From contig JAUSJX010000022.1 of assembly GCA_030647435.1 (NCBI GenBank), positions 1 to 64,000 on the forward strand: 64,000 nucleotides of DNA. The letters run 5' to 3'. This document shows, piece after piece, positions 4,667 through 30,132 of this stretch. The translations under genes were made by a program, and so were the position numbers. The notes beneath the pieces are model-generated. The model was not told where the DNA came from, did not search any database, and saw nothing but the letters and a program-made list of their open reading frames with translations. The stretch comes from Candidatus Rokuibacteriota bacterium (GTDB lineage Bacteria; Methylomirabilota; Methylomirabilia; Rokubacteriales; CSP1-6). Numbering within the stretch: the stretch's first letter is position 1; each line of letters opens with the position of its first letter.

Positions 4667-5746
4667 ATGAAGATCGGCCTCGTCGGGCTTCCCAAGAGCG
4701 GAAAGACCTCGCTGTTCAACCTGCTGACCGGTGCGTCGCTGGCGACCTCGTCGTTCGGGGGCTCGCGCGCGGAGATGCACGCGGGCGTGGCGCGCGTGCC
4801 CGACCCGCGGGTGGACACGCTGACCGCGCTCTTCAAGCCGAAGAAGACGACCTTCGCGTCGTTCGAAGTGGTAGACCTCGCCGGGATCACCAAGGGCGAC
4901 CGCGAGGGATTGGACGCCAAGGAGTTCAGGAACGCGGACGCGCTGTTGCACGTCGTGCGGGCCTTTCCCGACGCGGCCGGCGCGGCGCCCAACCCCAAGG
5001 GCGACATCGCGGATCTCGAGACCGAGCTGATCCTGGCCGACCTCGAGGTGGTGGAGCGCCGGCTGGAGCGGCTCGAGGCCTCCATCAAGAAGAAGCGCAC
5101 GGACGCCGACGTCAAGGAGCAGGCGGTCCTGCTGCGCCTCAAGCCCGCGCTCGAGTCCGAGACGCCGGTCCGTGCGGCTGAGTTGTCGGACGACGACGCC
5201 CGTGCGATCCGCGGCTTCACGTTCCTCTCGCAGAAGCCCATCCTCCACTGCCTGAATCTTTCGGAGAAAGAGATCGACCGCGGCAAGACTCTCGTCGAGA
5301 GCTTCGGGCTCGGAGAGATCGCCCGGCGCCCGGGCACTGGCGTCGGCTGGGTCTCCGCCGTCATCGAGGCCGAAGTGGCGCAACTGGCGGGGGAGGAGCA
5401 GGCGGCCTTTCTCGCGGACCTCGGGCTGAGCGAGCCAGCGATCAGGCGGGTGCTTCGCGACTGCTATGCGCTCCTCGGACTGATCTCCTTCTTCACCGTG
5501 GGCGAGGACGAGGTGCGAGCATGGTCCGTCCCGCGCGGGACACGCGGCCAGGACGCCGCGGGCGCCATCCACTCGGACATCGCGCGCGGTTTTATCCGCG
5601 CCGAGGTCGTGGGCTACGACGAGCTGGTCGCCGCCGAGGGCTCCATGGCCGCGGTGCGCGAGAAGGGGCAGTTCCGCCTCGAGGGCAAGGACTACGTCGT
5701 CCAGGACGGCGAGATCTGCCACTTCCGCTTCAACGTCGCCAAATAA
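4667..5746 (+). CDS. ychF: Redox-responsive ATPase YchF (OLA1 family)
   Basis: YchF is a ribosome-associated Obg-family P-loop ATPase. The 359-residue length fits the family (about 363). The P-loop GLPKSGKTS is at residues 7-15, the DLAG of the G3 motif follows near residue 67, and the NKxD box is replaced by NLSE (LHCLNLSEKE), the change that makes YchF prefer ATP. A helical insert and a C-terminal TGS domain with the usual final FRFNV follow. Stand-alone on the plus strand; its 3' end faces a minus-strand operon across a palindromic repeat that probably terminates both. Confidence 0.96.
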   Translation: MKIGLVGLPKSGKTSLFNLLTGASLATSSFGGSRAEMHAGVARVPDPRVDTLTALFKPKKTTFASFEVVDLAGITKGDREGLDAKEFRNADALLHVVRAFPDAAGAAPNPKGDIADLETELILADLEVVERRLERLEASIKKKRTDADVKEQAVLLRLKPALESETPVRAAELSDDDARAIRGFTFLSQKPILHCLNLSEKEIDRGKTLVESFGLGEIARRPGTGVGWVSAVIEAEVAQLAGEEQAAFLADLGLSEPAIRRVLRDCYALLGLISFFTVGEDEVRAWSVPRGTRGQDAAGAIHSDIARGFIRAEVVGYDELVAAEGSMAAVREKGQFRLEGKDYVVQDGEICHFRFNVAK

Positions 5747-5749
5747 TCC

Positions 5750-5921
5750 CCCCTCACCCTCTCAGCCCTCGCCTCACCGCTCGAAGCGAGCGTCTCGGCT
5801 CGAACTGCGACCCTCTCCCCCTTGGGGGAGAGGGAAACACAAGGGATCCCTTTTCCTCTCCGGGGGCGACGTTCACACACTGGGTCCCTCTCCCCTCATG
5901 GGGAGAGGGTAGGGTGAGGGG
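5750..5921. repeat. Nested palindromic intergenic element (REP/BIME-like), copy 1
   Basis: An outer 11-bp inverted repeat (5750-5760 with 5911-5921, CCCCTCACCCT/AGGGTGAGGGG) encloses two perfect inner palindromes: 5811-5834 (11-bp arms, CCCTCTCCCCC type) and 5886-5909 (10-bp arms). A related element with the same outer and inner core sequences lies at 20566-20655. Both sit between convergent genes, so they could act as bidirectional terminators as well as being mobile palindromic repeats. Confidence 0.75.
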
Positions 5922-5926
5922 TGGAG

Positions 5927-6079
5927 TTACGGTTCCGGAGTTAGCGGCCCGTGGGAGATCACGAGTATCCGGACGTCGGTGAGCGCGCGCTCGGGGCCGT
6001 AGACCAGGGGCCCGACCTGCCACCGGCCTTCGAGCACCAGGACCTCCACCGTGCTCTTCCTTGCGATAGCACCTCTCAT
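5927..6079 (-). CDS. 50-residue ORF translationally coupled to a methyltransferase gene
   Basis: The ATG at 6079 overlaps the TGA of the upstream methyltransferase gene in an ATGA, with AGGA about 9 nt upstream, which is what supports it as a real small gene. The sequence (VEVLVLEGRWQVGPLVYGPE, then TDVRILVISHG) alternates like a beta-rich domain. I do not recognise a family and it has no signal peptide or membrane segment. It is the last member of a five-gene minus-strand run, and its stop lies just before the palindromic element. Confidence 0.5.
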   Translation of the reverse strand: MRGAIARKSTVEVLVLEGRWQVGPLVYGPERALTDVRILVISHGPLTPEP

Positions 6080-6765
6080 GGCGGTGGTCCTTTCTGTACG
6101 CCCTTGGGAAGGTGGCCCCAGACGATCCAGTGACGGTCGCTGGCGAGCTCGCACACGAGCCCTCCCAGGCCGCGCGAGCGGACCTGGTAGCGGATCTCGC
6201 GCAGCGTGAAGGCCGCGCAGAGCGAGTTGAAGAAGTCCTCCTTGAGCACCGGCGCTTCGGTGCCGGAATACTGCTCGACGATCTCGTGAGCCCGCCCGGG
6301 AGACTCTGGGCGGAAAAGATCCATGATCAGCACGGCCGCACCCGGCTTGCCGAGCCGCACGAGCTCGTTCCAGAAGAGATACGGGTCGGGCATGTGGTGG
6401 ACGAGGCTGTTCGACACGACGGCGTCGAAGCTCTGGAGCGGCAGCGGCAGCATGGGCAGCCGGGCGCAGCGCGGGTGCACGCGGGCCTCCACGCCGGCCG
6501 CCTTCACCGCCTGCCGCGCGAGCGCGATCATCGGCTCCGAGCCGTCTACCGCGGTGATGGTGAAGTCGGGCAGGGCCCGGGCGAAGCGCACGGGAATGTC
6601 GCCCGGGCCGCAGCCGAGATCGACCATGGCGCCGCCGACGGTCTTGGGGAAGCACGCGCGGAAGCGATCCACGAAGCCCTGGTTGACCTGGACGAAGTCG
6701 GCCCTCGCGTAGGCGACGGCCTGGGCCTCGTCGGTCATCAGCTCGGGCTCGAGGATACGGTCCAT
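6076..6765 (-). CDS. Class I SAM-dependent methyltransferase
   Basis: A 229-residue Rossmann methyltransferase. Motif I is MVDLGCGPGDIPVRF (residues 47-61), followed by TAVDGSEPMIALAR (motif II acidic residue) and a motif IV region FDAVVSNSLVHHMPDP. The product is cytoplasmic and the substrate unknown. It starts 3 bp after the stop of the M23 peptidase gene and overlaps the 50-residue ORF at its end, so it is part of the same operon. Confidence 0.85.
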   Translation of the reverse strand: MDRILEPELMTDEAQAVAYARADFVQVNQGFVDRFRACFPKTVGGAMVDLGCGPGDIPVRFARALPDFTITAVDGSEPMIALARQAVKAAGVEARVHPRCARLPMLPLPLQSFDAVVSNSLVHHMPDPYLFWNELVRLGKPGAAVLIMDLFRPESPGRAHEIVEQYSGTEAPVLKEDFFNSLCAAFTLREIRYQVRSRGLGGLVCELASDRHWIVWGHLPKGVQKGPPP

Positions 6766-6768
6766 GCG

Positions 6769-7350
6769 CTACTGCCCGCGGATCCAGAAGAGGCACGTGA
6801 CAGGAAAGGTGAGGACGAGATGGTCGCGTGGATAGGCCTTGTCGGGAGCAAAGCAGCCGTCGGCGCTCGCGAGAGGATCCGCGGTGCCCGAGAGGTCGCC
6901 GTCGGCGTGGGAGGCGCAGGCGGACGTGCAGAGCTCCAAGTGCACGTGCGGGATGTTCACGGCGTTGCCGCTCATGCCGACCAGGCCGATCTGCTCGCCG
7001 CGGCTCACCCGCTGGCCCTGGACCACCGTGAGGCCCTGCATGTGGCAGTAGGCCGTCCAGCGCTTGAAGCCCGGGTGCTCGATGACCACACCGTTGCCGC
7101 AACCGGGAGGCCAATTGAGGACCCGGCTCACGACGCCGTCGGCGGCGGCGAGGACCGGCGCGCCCAGCTGGCCGCCGAAGTCCACACCGGCATGGCGCCT
7201 GAGCCGCGGCCGGTTGTTGGCGCCGTTGTACGAGCGGTAGGTCGAGAGGATGACGACCTCGTCCGTTCCGGCGGAGGTCTGACTTGAAGCCGGAGGGGCC
7301 ACGAGGACCGCCGACAGCAGAAGTCCCGAGACGGCGCCGCGCCAGGCCAT
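6769..7350 (-). CDS. Secreted M23 (LytM-type) peptidase
   Basis: A 193-residue protein with a Sec signal peptide (cleavage near PASSQ, residue 24) and one M23 domain. Zinc ligands and catalytic residues are visible: RHAGVDFGG (His53, Asp57), YCHMQG (His103) and NIPHVHLEL (His135, His137). M23 enzymes cut peptide cross-links of the cell wall or other glycine-rich peptides. Extra cysteines in the C-terminal third (ELCTSAC, DGCF, TCLFW) suggest disulfides in an exported protein. It lies 1 bp downstream of the UroD-family gene, an unusual functional pairing. Confidence 0.88.
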   Translation of the reverse strand: MAWRGAVSGLLLSAVLVAPPASSQTSAGTDEVVILSTYRSYNGANNRPRLRRHAGVDFGGQLGAPVLAAADGVVSRVLNWPPGCGNGVVIEHPGFKRWTAYCHMQGLTVVQGQRVSRGEQIGLVGMSGNAVNIPHVHLELCTSACASHADGDLSGTADPLASADGCFAPDKAYPRDHLVLTFPVTCLFWIRGQ

Positions 7351-7351
7351 C

Positions 7352-8359
7352 TTATTGAGGCTTGATCCCCATGAGCTTGACGCTGCCCCCGAGGGACTGC
7401 ACGAGTTCGATCATGCTGGCGTCCGAGTGCTGGGTCAAGAGGACGCAGCCCGCGCCGAGGATGATGCCAATGCCGGCCGTCTGGCCGAGCGCGTCCTGCG
7501 CCTCGGCCTTGGCGTCCGGGCCCGTGCCGTCCTTGAGCGTGCTCCACTGATTGAGCCCGCCCTGGACCGCGCCCGGCACCAGGGCCTTGCCCTCGGCGAG
7601 CGTGGGCCCGGCGCGGCGGTCGTCCCAGTTCCACACGTCGGCCGGAAGCGCTGCCAAGCGGTCGAACATCAGCCGCTCGCCGTGGCAGTGGAGCACGGTG
7701 AGGCGCGAGTGCTCGCGCACGGCCTCGAGGATGCGGCGGTCGTAGGGTTCGCCGAAGCGCGCGTACTCTTCTTCCGTGTGGAAGGCGTGGCTCGCGGCCT
7801 GGATGGAGTAGAAGATTCCTTCCGCGCCCTCCCGGAAACACGCCTCCATGAAGGCGAGGATCGTCTCAGTGATGGCGACGAGCGCGTCCTCGACGAGGCG
7901 CGTGTTCTCCTTGAGGTCGTAGTCGAGCCGGTCGCCCGAGAGCTTGCGCGCCAGCGACAGCGGGCTGAACACCGTCGGGACGACCGAGCAGTCCGCGCGG
8001 CGGTCCACCACGCAGCGGATGACGGACTCGATGTGGGACGCCCAGCCCGTGGACTCCATGGCGACGGGGCGGATCTTCTTCCAGTCCTCGGGAGCGTTCA
8101 CCGCATGGCGCAGGCAGGGGCGGTGGCCGTCCGGCGCCAGCTCCTCGCTCTCGACGCAGCCCCAGTCCTCGACCGCATAGCCGCCGGCGGGCGTGACCTT
8201 GAGGAAGTCCGAGCCGTAGCGCTCGTGGAAGCGGAGCGTGGTCTGGGCCAGCGCCGCCGGCGAGCGGTCCACGTTGGGGAAGTGGCGCCAGAACGCATAC
8301 GGCGGCCGGTCGGTCGGCTCGCGCTTGATCGCCGCCAGGATCCTCTCGCGCTTGGTCAT
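7352..8359 (-). CDS. Uroporphyrinogen decarboxylase-family (MtaA/UroD-like) methyltransferase
   Basis: A 335-residue TIM-barrel protein of the UroD superfamily: N-terminal MTKRERILAAIKREPTDRPP and the late LHCHGERLMFDRLAALPADV are typical of the branch that moves methyl groups between corrinoid proteins and a second acceptor rather than making haem. This assignment is supported by the gene directly upstream, which encodes a corrinoid-activation-type ferredoxin/ASKHA protein. No corrinoid-binding protein gene is present in the window. True haem-pathway genes lie far away, at 58-63 kb. Confidence 0.8.
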   Translation of the reverse strand: MTKRERILAAIKREPTDRPPYAFWRHFPNVDRSPAALAQTTLRFHERYGSDFLKVTPAGGYAVEDWGCVESEELAPDGHRPCLRHAVNAPEDWKKIRPVAMESTGWASHIESVIRCVVDRRADCSVVPTVFSPLSLARKLSGDRLDYDLKENTRLVEDALVAITETILAFMEACFREGAEGIFYSIQAASHAFHTEEEYARFGEPYDRRILEAVREHSRLTVLHCHGERLMFDRLAALPADVWNWDDRRAGPTLAEGKALVPGAVQGGLNQWSTLKDGTGPDAKAEAQDALGQTAGIGIILGAGCVLLTQHSDASMIELVQSLGGSVKLMGIKPQ

Positions 8360-23436: not shown

Positions 23437-24213
23437 TCAATCCCTGTCCGCGCGGAGCAGGATCATCCGGTCCGTGAAGGACTCGATGCGGCCCCACTCG
23501 ATCCTGAAGCGGAAAGCCTCCCGGCAGCGCGCCGGCGCCGCAAGCACGAAACGCTCGAGGTCGGCCTTGGCTTCCGGGCTCATTCTCATCCGCTCCGTCC
23601 ACTCCTCCCACTTGCGCACCTTGCTGACCATGCCCTCGTCGATCACCGTCATTCCCGCCGCCTTGAGGAAGGCCGCCCACTCCCGCTGGGGCAGTGAACG
23701 CACGTGCGAAGGGTCCCGCCGCTTCTCGACCTCGAGAATGAAGGCGGCCAGCTCCCGGTCGTCGTGACCCAGGATGTCCTGGAGGAGGAAGGAGCCGCCG
23801 GGCCTGAGCACGCGGGCGACTTCTCTGAGGGCGGGCAGGATGGCGGGGAAGTGGTGCGCGGCGATGCGGCACGTCACGACGCCGAACGAGGCATCCCGGA
23901 AGGGCAGGGCCTCGACGTCCGACGCCAGGAAACGGACATTGACCGCGCCCTTGCCCCGGACGAAGCCGCGCGCGGCCTCGAGCATTGGCGGCGTCAGGTC
24001 AATCGCGACCACGGAGGGCGTGAAGCCGGCGAAGGCGAGCGCAGTGTGGCCGCCGCCCGTCGCGACGTCGAGCACGCGTAGGGCTCCGCGCCGGCGCCCC
24101 CACGCGACGAGGCGCTCGAGGTCCTCGCCTCCCGCGTGGCCGGCGCTCGTGACGTAGTCCTGGGCGCTCTGGCCGAACTCCGCCTGGACCTGCGCCTTCT
24201 GGCTGTCGCTCAC
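23437..24213 (-). CDS. SAM-dependent methyltransferase (UbiE/COQ5-like)
   Basis: A 258-residue class I methyltransferase. Motif I is VLDVATGGGHTALAFA (residues 47-62), then a VVAIDLTPPMLEAARG acidic-loop motif and FGVVTCRIAAHHFPAI. Substrate unknown. The GTG start at 24213 overlaps the TGA of the 62-residue ORF upstream (GTGA), so it is the last gene of a tightly coupled trio whose first member has a caspase-like pattern. Confidence 0.88.
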   Translation of the reverse strand: MSDSQKAQVQAEFGQSAQDYVTSAGHAGGEDLERLVAWGRRRGALRVLDVATGGGHTALAFAGFTPSVVAIDLTPPMLEAARGFVRGKGAVNVRFLASDVEALPFRDASFGVVTCRIAAHHFPAILPALREVARVLRPGGSFLLQDILGHDDRELAAFILEVEKRRDPSHVRSLPQREWAAFLKAAGMTVIDEGMVSKVRKWEEWTERMRMSPEAKADLERFVLAAPARCREAFRFRIEWGRIESFTDRMILLRADRD

Positions 24214-24398
24214 GCGGCGGGGCCCTTCGGGCGTTCGGCGACGTGGCGGAAGAGGAAGTCCGAATCGAGGGGCGTCAGGTCGAAGCGCCGGCCGGCCTCG
24301 TCCACCAGCTTCACGCGGTCGGCGGCCGGCTGCTCCCGCAGCCGCTCCTCGATCCACGCGACGGCCTGCTTGATCGGCGCTTCACTCCGCCCGCTCAC
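24210..24398 (-). CDS. 62-residue protein of unknown function, coupled between two genes
   Basis: The GTG at 24398 overlaps the TGA of the upstream gene and its own TGA overlaps the GTG of the methyltransferase, both as GTGA, which supports translation. The sequence (APIKQAVAWIEERLREQP, then KLVDEAGRRFDLTPLDSDFL) is a helix followed by a short strand-turn-helix. I do not recognise a family; its position suggests a partner or adaptor of one of its neighbours. Confidence 0.6.
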   Translation of the reverse strand: MSGRSEAPIKQAVAWIEERLREQPAADRVKLVDEAGRRFDLTPLDSDFLFRHVAERPKGPAA

Positions 24399-25141
24399 AG
24401 GTCGCGCACCTGTCGGCGCGCCCGGTCGACGCTCTGCCGGTACGTCTCGAACGAGCTGACCAGCCGCGGCTTCCTTCCCCGCTGCCGGTCGAGGGTGAAG
24501 CACGAGAAGGTGATGTCGTGAGCCAGCGGGAAGTCGCGGTAGAGCATGCCGGCGACCTTCTGCGGCCTCTCCGTGTGCGTGATCTCGAAGGTCTCCGTCT
24601 GTCTCAACGGCGGCACCCGCTCGCCGTGCTTGGTGCGCACCCATTTCATGCTACCGCCGAGAAGGTACGACAGGAAGAGGCTGTCCACCAGCATGGACTC
24701 CGTCCACGGGATCTCCTTTTGGTAGCCCGCCAAAAAGCGCGCGCCCGTGGCATCGAGGAACTTCCGCGCCGTGTCAGGGGAGACGAAGTCGCAGGCGCCG
24801 ACGATGTAGCCCGTTGTCCGGCTGGGCCGGCAGTACCCGATCAGGCTCTCGAGGCGGATGACCTTGTCGCCGAGCCCGGTCAGCTTGCGCTGCTCTCCGT
24901 GCGACGAGATGTAGCAGACTTGGCGCTTGCGGTGGCGGCGCACCTCCTTGAGCAGCAGGCCCAGGTCGTAGTGCGAGTAGAAGCGGCGGTAGACGAGGTT
25001 GATACGGATGCCCTCCCAGGCCAACGACTGCCGAATGGCCTTGAGGTAGGGCAGCACCGACGGCTCCTCGTTGAGGAGCTTGCCCTTGGGATTCCACATC
25101 GACTCGAGGACGACCAGGCGCGCCATGGCTAGGACGCGCAT
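24395..25141 (-). CDS. Protein with a caspase-like His/Cys dyad pattern
   Basis: A 248-residue protein I cannot place in a named family. Its central part alternates predicted strands and helices, with RQVCYISSHGEQ (His81-Gly82 at the end of a strand) and GYIVGACDFVSP (Cys117 after another strand), a spacing of 36 that resembles the HG...C dyad of C14 caspases, CHAT and gingipain-like peptidases. A helical region and a beta-rich C-terminus (FEITHTERPQKV) follow. The frame is open upstream to 25411 but that overlaps the divergent regulator gene; starts at 25141 or 25126 are reasonable. First gene of a three-gene coupled operon. Confidence 0.6.
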   Translation of the reverse strand: MRVLAMARLVVLESMWNPKGKLLNEEPSVLPYLKAIRQSLAWEGIRINLVYRRFYSHYDLGLLLKEVRRHRKRQVCYISSHGEQRKLTGLGDKVIRLESLIGYCRPSRTTGYIVGACDFVSPDTARKFLDATGARFLAGYQKEIPWTESMLVDSLFLSYLLGGSMKWVRTKHGERVPPLRQTETFEITHTERPQKVAGMLYRDFPLAHDITFSCFTLDRQRGRKPRLVSSFETYRQSVDRARRQVRDL

Positions 25142-25165
25142 GATACCACGCAGAAAGGGGCCTCT

Positions 25166-25226
25166 AATTGGATGATTCCAGACCCATCCAATTGGCGCTT
25201 TACATCGTACCAAATGTCTGGATAAT
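25166..25226 (+). promoter_or_regulatory. Promoter and operator candidate of the PdxR regulator
   Basis: TTTACA at 25199-25204 and GATAAT at 25221-25226 are 16 bp apart. Upstream lies a perfect 9-bp inverted repeat AATTGGATG/CATCCAATT (25166-25174 and 25185-25193). A second pair, CCAGAC at 25178-25183 and GTCTGG at 25216-25221, extends into the -10 element. The ATG follows at 25245. The AT-rich character stands out from the surrounding coding sequence. MocR regulators usually bind such repeats near their own promoter. Confidence 0.6.
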
Positions 25227-25244
25227 GGCTGGCACGAGAGGGCC

Positions 25245-26777
25245 ATGAGAATACCGCTCGACCGATCCAAGGACCGCAAGGGACGGCTGCCGCTGGCGCG
25301 CCAGATCCAGCTGCACCTGGAGCGGCTGATTACCCAGCGACTGCTCGCGCCGGCCGTGAAGCTGCCCGCGACCCGCGACCTTGCGCGTGACCTCGGCGTG
25401 AATCGCACCACGGTGGCGCAGGCCTACGAAGACCTGATCGCGGGCGGCTGGGCACGCGCTCATGTCGGCCAGGGCACCTTCGTCGCCGAGCAGGCGCCCG
25501 CCCCGGCCCAGGCCGCGGCGCACGTGCCGCGCTTCGAGTGGACGGGTCACCTCTCCAAGGCCGCACTGATCGTCGCGGCGGACGCGCGCCGCCGCGGCGC
25601 CTACAGCCAGACGGCCCGGACGGCCTCGGGCGTGATCTCGTTCGCCGGCGGCATGCCGGACAGCGCCCTCTTCCCGACCGACGCGTTCCGCCGCGTCCTC
25701 AACCGCGTCATCCGCGAGGAGGGGCGCGAGCTCCTCCAGTACTACCCGTCATCCGGCTACCCGCCGCTCCGCCAGTACCTCTCGGGCTATCTCCTCCGCT
25801 TCGGGCTCGAGGCGCGCCCCGAGGATATCCTGATCGTCAACGGCACGCAGCAGGGCTTCGATCTCGTCGCTCGCACCCTGCTCGACCCCGGCGACTTTGT
25901 GGCCATCGAGCAGCCGTCGTACCCGCGGGCGATGCAGGTCTTCCGCGCGTTCGGCGCGCAGCTCCTGCCGGTGCCGATGGCGGGCGGCGGGCTGTCGGTG
26001 GACCACCTGGAGAGGCTGCTCGAACGGCAGGCGCCCAAGCTCCTCTACTGCCAGCCGAGCGCGCACAACCCGACGGGGCTCCACATGCCCGCGGCGGCCC
26101 GGCGCCGGCTGCTGGACGTGGCCGCGCGCCACCGCCTGCCCATCGTCGAGGATGCCTTCGACGGCACGCTCTTCTACGGCGAGCGGCCGCCGGTGCCGCT
26201 CAAGGCGGCGGATGCCTCGGGGCAGGTGATCTACCTCGGCACTTTCTCCAAGGTTCTCTTCCCAGGTCTCCGACTGGGCTGGATCGTGGCGTCGCCCGAG
26301 CTGATCGAGCGGCTCGAGATGGCCAAGCAGCTGGCCGACATCCACACGAGCCCGCTCATTCAGGCCGCCGTCTACCACTTCTGCCGCCAGCGGCTCCTCG
26401 ACCGTCACCAGGCGCGCGCGCTGCGCGAGTACGCGCGGCGGCGCAATGCGCTCCTGGCCGCCCTTGGCCGCCGCATGCCTGAGGGCGTGAGCTGGACCGA
26501 AACGCAGGGCGGCTTCTCGCTGCTGCTCGAGCTGCCCGAGGGGCTCGATGCCGGAGCGCTTCTGCCGCGCGCCCTCGAACGCGGGGTCGCCTTCACGCCG
26601 GGCAATGCCTTCTTCAGCGACGGCGGCGGCGAGCGGGCGCTGCGACTGTCCTTCTCTGCGGTGCCCTTCGGGCAGATCGAGGAAGGCGTGCGTCGGCTGG
26701 CCGACAGCATTCGCGAGGCGCAGCGTCGGCCGGAGCGCGGGACCCGCGAGCGCGGGCCCGCCGTGCCGCTGGTCTAG
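25245..26777 (+). CDS. pdxR: MocR/PdxR-family transcriptional regulator with aminotransferase domain
   Basis: 510 residues: an N-terminal GntR winged helix (PATRDLARDLGVNRTTVAQA, residues 41-60) fused to a fold-type I aminotransferase domain that binds PLP at Lys336 (GTFSKVLFPGLRLGW); NPTG, LQYYPSSGY and the NGTQQGFDL motif are present. PdxR proteins sense PLP and activate pdxST when vitamin B6 is low, which fits the presence of pdxS and pdxT 1.8 kb downstream. I therefore infer PdxR rather than another MocR role. RBS GAGAGGG precedes the ATG. Confidence 0.88.
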   Translation: MRIPLDRSKDRKGRLPLARQIQLHLERLITQRLLAPAVKLPATRDLARDLGVNRTTVAQAYEDLIAGGWARAHVGQGTFVAEQAPAPAQAAAHVPRFEWTGHLSKAALIVAADARRRGAYSQTARTASGVISFAGGMPDSALFPTDAFRRVLNRVIREEGRELLQYYPSSGYPPLRQYLSGYLLRFGLEARPEDILIVNGTQQGFDLVARTLLDPGDFVAIEQPSYPRAMQVFRAFGAQLLPVPMAGGGLSVDHLERLLERQAPKLLYCQPSAHNPTGLHMPAAARRRLLDVAARHRLPIVEDAFDGTLFYGERPPVPLKAADASGQVIYLGTFSKVLFPGLRLGWIVASPELIERLEMAKQLADIHTSPLIQAAVYHFCRQRLLDRHQARALREYARRRNALLAALGRRMPEGVSWTETQGGFSLLLELPEGLDAGALLPRALERGVAFTPGNAFFSDGGGERALRLSFSAVPFGQIEEGVRRLADSIREAQRRPERGTRERGPAVPLV

Positions 26778-28615: not shown

Positions 28616-29497
28616 ATGGAACTCGGAACGATGAGGCTCAAGGTCGGGCTGGCGGAGATGCTCAAGGGCGGCGTGATCATGGACGTGACCAACGCCGAGC
28701 AGGCCAAGATTGCGGAGGATGCGGGCGCCGTGGCGGTGATGGCGCTCGAGCGCGTGCCGTCGGACATCCGCAAGGATGGGGGCGTGGCGCGCATGTCACC
28801 CGTGAAGAAGATCAAGGAGATCCAGCAGACGGTGTCCATCCCGGTCATGGCCAAGTGCCGCATCGGCCACTTCGTCGAGGCGCAGATTCTCGAGTCGTTG
28901 GGCGTGGACTTCATCGACGAGTCCGAGGTGCTGACCCCCGCCGACGAGCACTTCCACGTGGACAAGTTCGCCTTCAAGGTGCCCTTCGTCTGCGGCTGCC
29001 GTGACCTGGGCGAGGCGCTCAGGCGCATCGGCGAAGGCGCGGCCATGATCCGCACCAAGGGCGAGGCCGGCTCGGGTAACATCGTCGAGGCCGTCCGCCA
29101 TATGCGTGCTGTCATCTCCGGGATCAAGCGGCTCAAGGCGCTCGGGCCGGAGGAGCTGATGACCGAGGCCAAGAACCTCGGCGCGCCCTACGAGCTGCTG
29201 CGCTGGGTTGCCGAGCACGGCAAGCTGCCGGTGCCGAACTTCTCCGCGGGTGGCATCGCCACGCCGGCAGATGCGGCACTCATGATGCAGCTGGGCGCCG
29301 AGGGCGTCTTCGTCGGCTCCGGCATCTTCAAGTCGGCCGATCCGGCGGCGCGCGCCAAGGCCACCGTGCAGGCGACCACCCACTTCAAGGACGCCGATAT
29401 CCTGGCCAAGGTCTCCGAAGACCTGGGCGACGCCATGCCCGGCATCGAGACCTCCAAGCTCAAGGAGTCTGACCTGTTCCAGACCCGCGGCTGGTAG
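28616..29497 (+). CDS. pdxS: Pyridoxal 5'-phosphate synthase subunit PdxS
   Basis: A 293-residue TIM-barrel synthase that condenses ribose 5-phosphate, glyceraldehyde 3-phosphate and ammonia into PLP. Catalytic residues match the family: Asp23 ([12 protein letters not shown]), Lys80 ([15 protein letters not shown]) and Lys148 ([12 protein letters not shown]). It forms a dodecamer decorated with PdxT, whose gene follows 53 bp downstream. I use the ATG at 28616, preceded by AAAGGAGA; the open frame upstream is noncoding. Confidence 0.98.
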
Positions 29498-29550: not shown

Positions 29551-30132
29551 ATGACCATCGGGGTCCTCGCCCTCCAGGGCGACTTCGACCTGCACCGGAA
29601 GGCGCTCGCCCGGATCGGCCACGAGTCGGTCGAGGTGAGGCTGCCGCGCCAGCTCGAGCAGGTGGACGGGCTCATCATGCCCGGGGGCGAGAGCACCACG
29701 CTGCTCAAGCTTCTCGAGGAATGGGACTTCGTCCCGGCGCTCGGGAAGTTCCACGCCGCGGGCAAGCCCATCTTCGGCACCTGCGCGGGGCTGATTCTCC
29801 TCGCGCGCGAGGTCGAGAGCCCGACGCAGCCGTCGCTCGGGCTCATCGACATCACGGCCGAGCGCAACGCCTACGGCCGGCAGAAGGAGAGCTTCGAGAC
29901 GGAGGGGGAGGCCGACCTGGGGCAGGGGCCTCAGCCGATCAAGATGGTCTTCATCCGGGCGCCCCGTATCCGGCGGATGGGGCCGGCCGTCACGCCGCTG
30001 GTGATGCATCAGGGCGAGTGCGTCATGGCACGCCAGGGCACGGTGCTGGTCGCGGCCTTTCATCCAGAGCTGACGGACGACCAGACGGTACACCGCTACT
30101 TCGCTTCGATGGTCCGGCAGGCCGCGGGCTAG
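29551..30132 (+). CDS. pdxT: Pyridoxal 5'-phosphate synthase glutaminase subunit PdxT
   Basis: A 193-residue class I glutaminase that supplies ammonia to PdxS. The triad is visible as Cys78 (FGTCAGL), His171 and Glu173 (AFHPELTDD), and the MPGGEST and RAPRI motifs that contact PdxS are present. Last gene of the vitamin B6 cluster; a new promoter lies downstream. Confidence 0.98.
   Translation: MTIGVLALQGDFDLHRKALARIGHESVEVRLPRQLEQVDGLIMPGGESTTLLKLLEEWDFVPALGKFHAAGKPIFGTCAGLILLAREVESPTQPSLGLIDITAERNAYGRQKESFETEGEADLGQGPQPIKMVFIRAPRIRRMGPAVTPLVMHQGECVMARQGTVLVAAFHPELTDDQTVHRYFASMVRQAAG

Follow-up and report, generated by a model that had tools for sequence, protein, structure and literature searches.

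Caspases are proteases whose best-known role is in the death of animal cells. The described proteins closest in fold to the one reported here are the CHAT proteases (PF12770), with the SAVED-CHAT protein 8tl0 as best match, and the caspases, metacaspases and orthocaspases of family C14. We analysed a 64,000-nucleotide stretch of DNA from a Candidatus Rokuibacteriota bacterium (hereafter the window) that encodes a protein which, with a probability of about two in three, is a small cytosolic cysteine peptidase that consists of a single domain of the caspase/haemoglobinase fold, probably controlled by the PLP-sensing regulator PdxR, the adjoining genes for a 62-aa protein and a methyltransferase being neighbours. 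Unlike the CHAT proteases the protein stands alone, without TPR, SAVED or other sensor domain, and has no Pfam CHAT match. Unlike in the C14 proteins, the Cys strand and strand 5 are predicted to be connected by a helix, where caspases have the p20/p10 linker; this helix is a CHAT-like rather than a caspase-like trait.

The first-pass annotation, made from the letters of the DNA alone, had described three open reading frames tied together by two consecutive GTGA overlaps, and indeed all three were present on the minus strand, with an overlap of 4 bp at both junctions (Table 1). The first frame had been started at an ATG at 25141. Since the homologues of the caspase-like protein begin at the Met preceding LVVLES, which is equivalent to 25126, and since the ATG at 25141 coincides in part with a conserved -10-like box, we assign a length of 243 amino acids to the protein. 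Counted from this Met, the former His81 and Cys117 become His76 and Cys112; the strand-HG...strand-GACD pattern noticed around them was borne out and goes beyond chance, as its His, Gly and Cys are invariant in the homologues. The third product had been recognised as a SAM methyltransferase, and profile matching confirmed it as class I (Methyltransf_11, 81 bits). Because none of the 25 NCBIfam models listed matched it above cut-off, no substrate is proposed.

Table 1 Features of the locus in the window
Feature	Coordinates	Strand	Remarks
Class I SAM-dependent methyltransferase (Methyltransf_11)	23437..24213	-	profile match
62-aa three-helix protein (predicted), without named family	24210..24398	-	widespread in Methylomirabilota
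Predicted caspase-fold protein, distant DUF6642 relative	24395..25126	-	243 aa; alternative start of the first-pass annotation at 25141
Putative extended -10-like box TGGTATCAT for the caspase-like gene	25140..25145	-	read from sequence
Operator-like ATTGG-N19-ATTGG	25167..25195	not assigned	contains palindrome CCAATTGG at 25188-25195
Conserved pdxR promoter-like sequence	25199..25226	+	TTTACA 25199-25204, GATAAT 25221-25226; read from sequence
PdxR, MocR-type PLP-dependent transcription factor	25245..26777	+	NF052282, 357.8 bits (cut-off 320); divergent from the caspase-like gene
PdxS (SOR/SNZ), PLP synthase subunit	28616..29497	+	
PdxT (SNO), PLP synthase glutaminase subunit	29551..30132	+	

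The structure of the caspase-like protein was predicted by AlphaFold2 from 16 sequences (pTM 0.80, pLDDT 77). The elements of the model follow each other in the order β1-α1-β2-α2-β3(His)-small β pair-α3-β4(Cys)-β5-α4-α5-β6. Strand 3 leads up to the His and strand 4 to the Cys, an arrangement that defines the core of clan CD, and the order of strands and helices as well as the placing of His and Cys match the published description of the clan (PMC4357240). A Foldseek search of the PDB gave 101 matches at E ≤ 1e-3, of which the best 50 were all caspases or SAVED-CHAT, with 8tl0 at the top (E 8.1e-6, probability 1.00); caspase-3, -7, -9 and CED-3 were found as matches from C14. TM-scores were moderate (0.34–0.48 by query length) and the rmsd amounted to 4–11 Å over long, flexible alignments and, therefore, the likeness is one at the level of the core fold. 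When the PDB was searched with the sequence profile, the 60 matches listed comprised only caspase-3 chains, many of them copies of one protein; these matches were weak (best E 0.12) and not significant alone, with the catalytic HG in register. A search with the single sequence returned only a designed protein (E 0.053), which was taken as chance. Alignment by hhalign to CHAT and C14 proteins from relatives brought both His and Cys into register with CHAT (probability 10.4) and His with C14 (18.8), whereas six unrelated controls aligned with the same profile reached 2.6 at most; with a second, Rokubacteria-wide profile the values were 2.7 and 4.9 versus 4.3 for the methyltransferase and thus not separated from controls. 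In sum, the structure prediction and fold comparison proposed earlier as a check came out in favour of a caspase/CHAT-like fold, and the model and the Foldseek matches make a caspase fold with a conserved dyad well supported.

In a set of 20 sequences (the window protein and 19 homologues) His76, Gly77, Cys112, E8, W11, W141 and S144 were invariant, together with other residues. A divergent set with 20–39% identity to the window protein, which takes in Acidobacteriota and a proteobacterium (L053 and L123 being one protein in this set), still retained L7, E8, W11, P26, H76, G77, C112, G134, W141 and S144. The sole Pfam match of the window protein is DUF6642 (PF20347) and, with 21.7 bits against a curated cut-off of 27, the protein is not a member by score; DUF6642 was matched by all 16 members scanned, and distant relatives such as L034, L123 and L125-L131 exceeded the cut-off. 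The earlier statement that the protein fits no family was, therefore, nearly right: nothing lies above the cut-off, but a match below it exists. DUF6642 and the Rokubacteria branch have the core and the invariant E8, W11, P26, HG, C, G134, W141 and S144 in common, and the latter differs by its score below the cut-off, a longer C-terminus and an additional basic conserved segment at ~157–186. This segment (MKWVRTKHGER...) follows helix 4, is specific to Rokubacteria, was modelled with low confidence and is not at the position of the caspase p20/p10 linker. Profiles of CHAT (PF12770) and Peptidase C14 (PF00656) matched none of 16 members at E ≤ 5, and nothing informative came out when the caspase-like and the 62-aa proteins were scanned against PADLOC, PHROGs and NCBIfam. 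No relative of the caspase-like protein was found in the viral contigs searched, and 399 genomes of the proteobacterium's phylum contained no DUF6642 besides the one already known. A caspase fold appears to be common to the entire DUF6642 family. One homologue (L065, genome G088) carries an in-frame TGA, which makes it a pseudogene, an assembly error or a case of recoding. Furthermore, the host genome (G000) encodes two proteins with a CHAT domain and one of the C14 caspase-like kind (G000:C135:41590-42384, G000:C132:21723-22703 and G000:C142:7113-7859).

A caspase fold does not have to be a peptidase, and the conserved residues could instead serve ligand binding or another reaction. The protein has no substrate, partner or protease-family match, DUF6642 being reached only below threshold, and the invariant E8, W11, W141 and S144 beyond the dyad could make a ligand site. 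However, both residues of the dyad, whose conservation had been named as a check, are invariant down to ~20% identity, and so is Gly77, the Gly adjoining the catalytic His that is common to all clan CD families, whereas in the pseudo-orthocaspases, which are known as inactive homologues of caspases, the dyad is replaced (PMC6426788). We therefore regard a non-peptidase function as unlikely, although it fares best among the alternatives, and take the caspase-like protein to be a probable peptidase.

The caspase-like gene lies in a chromosomal slot that is bounded by the divergent pdxR, with pdxS and pdxT downstream, and by a convergent Smr/amidase block; most of the Rokubacteria loci examined retain this frame, whether or not they have the caspase-like gene. 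The pdxR intergenic region (window 25127-25244) is strongly conserved, and in it CCAATTGG adjoins TTTACA/TTGAC and a -10 box. CCAATTGG was found in 29 of 31 divergent intergenic regions and ATTGG-N19-ATTGG in 17 of the 31 loci, compared to 0.005 expected by mononucleotide shuffling, which ignores common descent. Published operators of MocR-type regulators consist for the most part of direct and inverted repeats, and PdxR proteins are described as acting on intergenic regions that they have in common with divergent genes (PMC5320631). Together with the conserved operator-like sequence, this arrangement makes control of the caspase-like gene by PdxR plausible. Since the operator-like element is also present in genomes without the caspase-like gene, it may serve only pdxR.

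One could go further and regard DUF6642 as a so far unrecognised family of clan CD peptidases with a link to vitamin B6, the Rokubacteria member acting under PdxR and tuning PLP-dependent metabolism via limited proteolysis, with a PLP enzyme or a regulator as target. The idea comes from the fact that one branch faces pdxR-pdxST across the divergent promoter and the other abuts a PLP aminotransferase gene in four of six loci; we consider it improbable, if worth stating. In these four Rokubacteria loci (L034, L037, L038 and L039, ~4766-7586) DUF6642 proper and the class-V PLP aminotransferase are separated by 2 bp or overlap by 1 bp. Two of the four abutting aminotransferases were scanned, and both are 2-aminoethylphosphonate aminotransferases.

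The first-pass annotation had further seen a coupled trio in the three genes, possibly a unit of peptide maturation or signalling. For the 62-aa gene and the methyltransferase gene the coupling held: they overlap by 4 bp in 13 of the 16 loci in which the one is followed by the other, and the overlap is also seen in genomes without the caspase-like gene, so the link is old. The overlap of the caspase-like and the 62-aa gene, in contrast, was found only in the window genome among the loci compared. In the nearest relative 342 bp lie between the two and contain a short gene; compared to this relative, a net 344 bp are absent from the window and the start of the 62-aa gene is altered accordingly. 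If its TGA is read as selenocysteine, the short gene would encode an AhpD-like protein with a CTSU motif; its downstream half gave a Pfam CMD match under the cut-off, and the gene is absent at this place in the window genome. In L021 (5664-5957, minus strand), and also in L104 and L105, standard gene calling splits it at the in-frame TGA, which would give a C-x-x-U motif if translated as Sec; a tRNA-Sec is encoded in the host genome (G000:C56:40615-40708). Elsewhere, the caspase-like and the 62-aa gene are 72 to ~5000 bp apart, and selenoprotein, zinc-ribbon or ABC-transporter genes usually intervene. In several caspase-bearing genera (L028-L032, L121) the methyltransferase gene is not at the locus; there, genes for an ABC ATPase and an ABC_tran_2 permease lie between the caspase-like and the 62-aa gene and a selenoprotein gene is likewise missing. 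The three-gene order, which was to be compared among homologues, is thus not maintained.

The 62-aa protein was found in 62 of 95 genomes of the phylum, nearly always as a single copy and mostly without the caspase-like gene, versus 24 of 95 for all DUF6642-like matches. It is strongly conserved over its full length and was modelled with confidence as a compact three-helix domain; a fold search against the PDB revealed homeodomain-like helices only, none significant (best E 0.59). The protein is, therefore, predicted to be a folded domain and not a precursor peptide with a variable core and, since the genes are also not kept together with a protease and a modifier, the locus does not resemble a RiPP-like cassette. 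A dedicated system, in which the caspase-like protein would process or be controlled by the 62-aa protein and the methyltransferase would modify the latter, would agree with the two overlaps in the window genome and with the observation that the caspase-like and the 62-aa gene share strand and slot in all loci spanning the slot. The young junction, the intervening genes, the absence of the methyltransferase gene from the locus in several genera and the wide occurrence of a 62-aa protein, predicted to be folded, on its own make such a system very unlikely, and the idea of a peptide-maturation or signalling unit is not supported. What looks like a system of three genes is probably an old operon of two, to which the caspase-like gene was joined by a recent deletion.

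The caspase-like gene is conserved like its housekeeping neighbours (70–98% identity) and has a dN/dS of ~0.09 in the closest pair and up to ~0.36 where dS nears saturation, demonstrating purifying selection. Distances of the caspase-like protein track those of PdxR (Spearman 0.87); the gene is inherited vertically, does not evolve fast and is not mobile. Judged from the midpoint-rooted PdxR tree, it appears to be old and to have been lost from one clade; two gains instead of one loss may be an alternative. A regulated cell-death or anti-phage effector, like the CHAT proteases in type III-E CRISPR, is brought to mind by the SAVED-CHAT filament as nearest fold match and is hardly to be expected of a gene with a core chromosomal position and the slow, vertical evolution of its housekeeping neighbours, with no sensor, CRISPR or other effector fused or adjacent and no PADLOC match in 13 members.

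We propose that the caspase-like protein is of clan CD type and represents a branch of Rokubacteria proteins that is related to DUF6642 but divergent from it. The predicted catalytic dyad consists of His76, which follows strand 3, and Cys112, at which strand 4 ends. Glu8 and Trp11 in loop 1, like Trp141 and Ser144 in loop 5, are invariant, occupy clan CD substrate-pocket positions and may line such a pocket; a preference for a basic P1 residue would be a guess from Glu8. The gene is probably expressed from the promoter region it has in common with the divergent pdxR, under control of PdxR, and the product would cleave a few specific proteins of the cytosol, or a single one. Its dedicated substrate and modifier would not be the 62-aa protein and the methyltransferase, whose genes are rather taken as neighbours that are co-transcribed with it in a chromosomal slot of variable content.

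Most likely, then, the protein is a specific cysteine peptidase of the cytosol, and its family is not so described in the open-licence literature searched, where no mention of DUF6642 was found. DUF6642, listed only as of unknown function, gains a testable identity as a caspase-fold cysteine peptidase, and the nearby PdxR makes PLP a concrete first condition for the caspase-like gene. A minimal, stand-alone and vertically inherited caspase-fold protein without sensor or death domain offers a simple case for bacterial roles of this fold outside defence and cell death.
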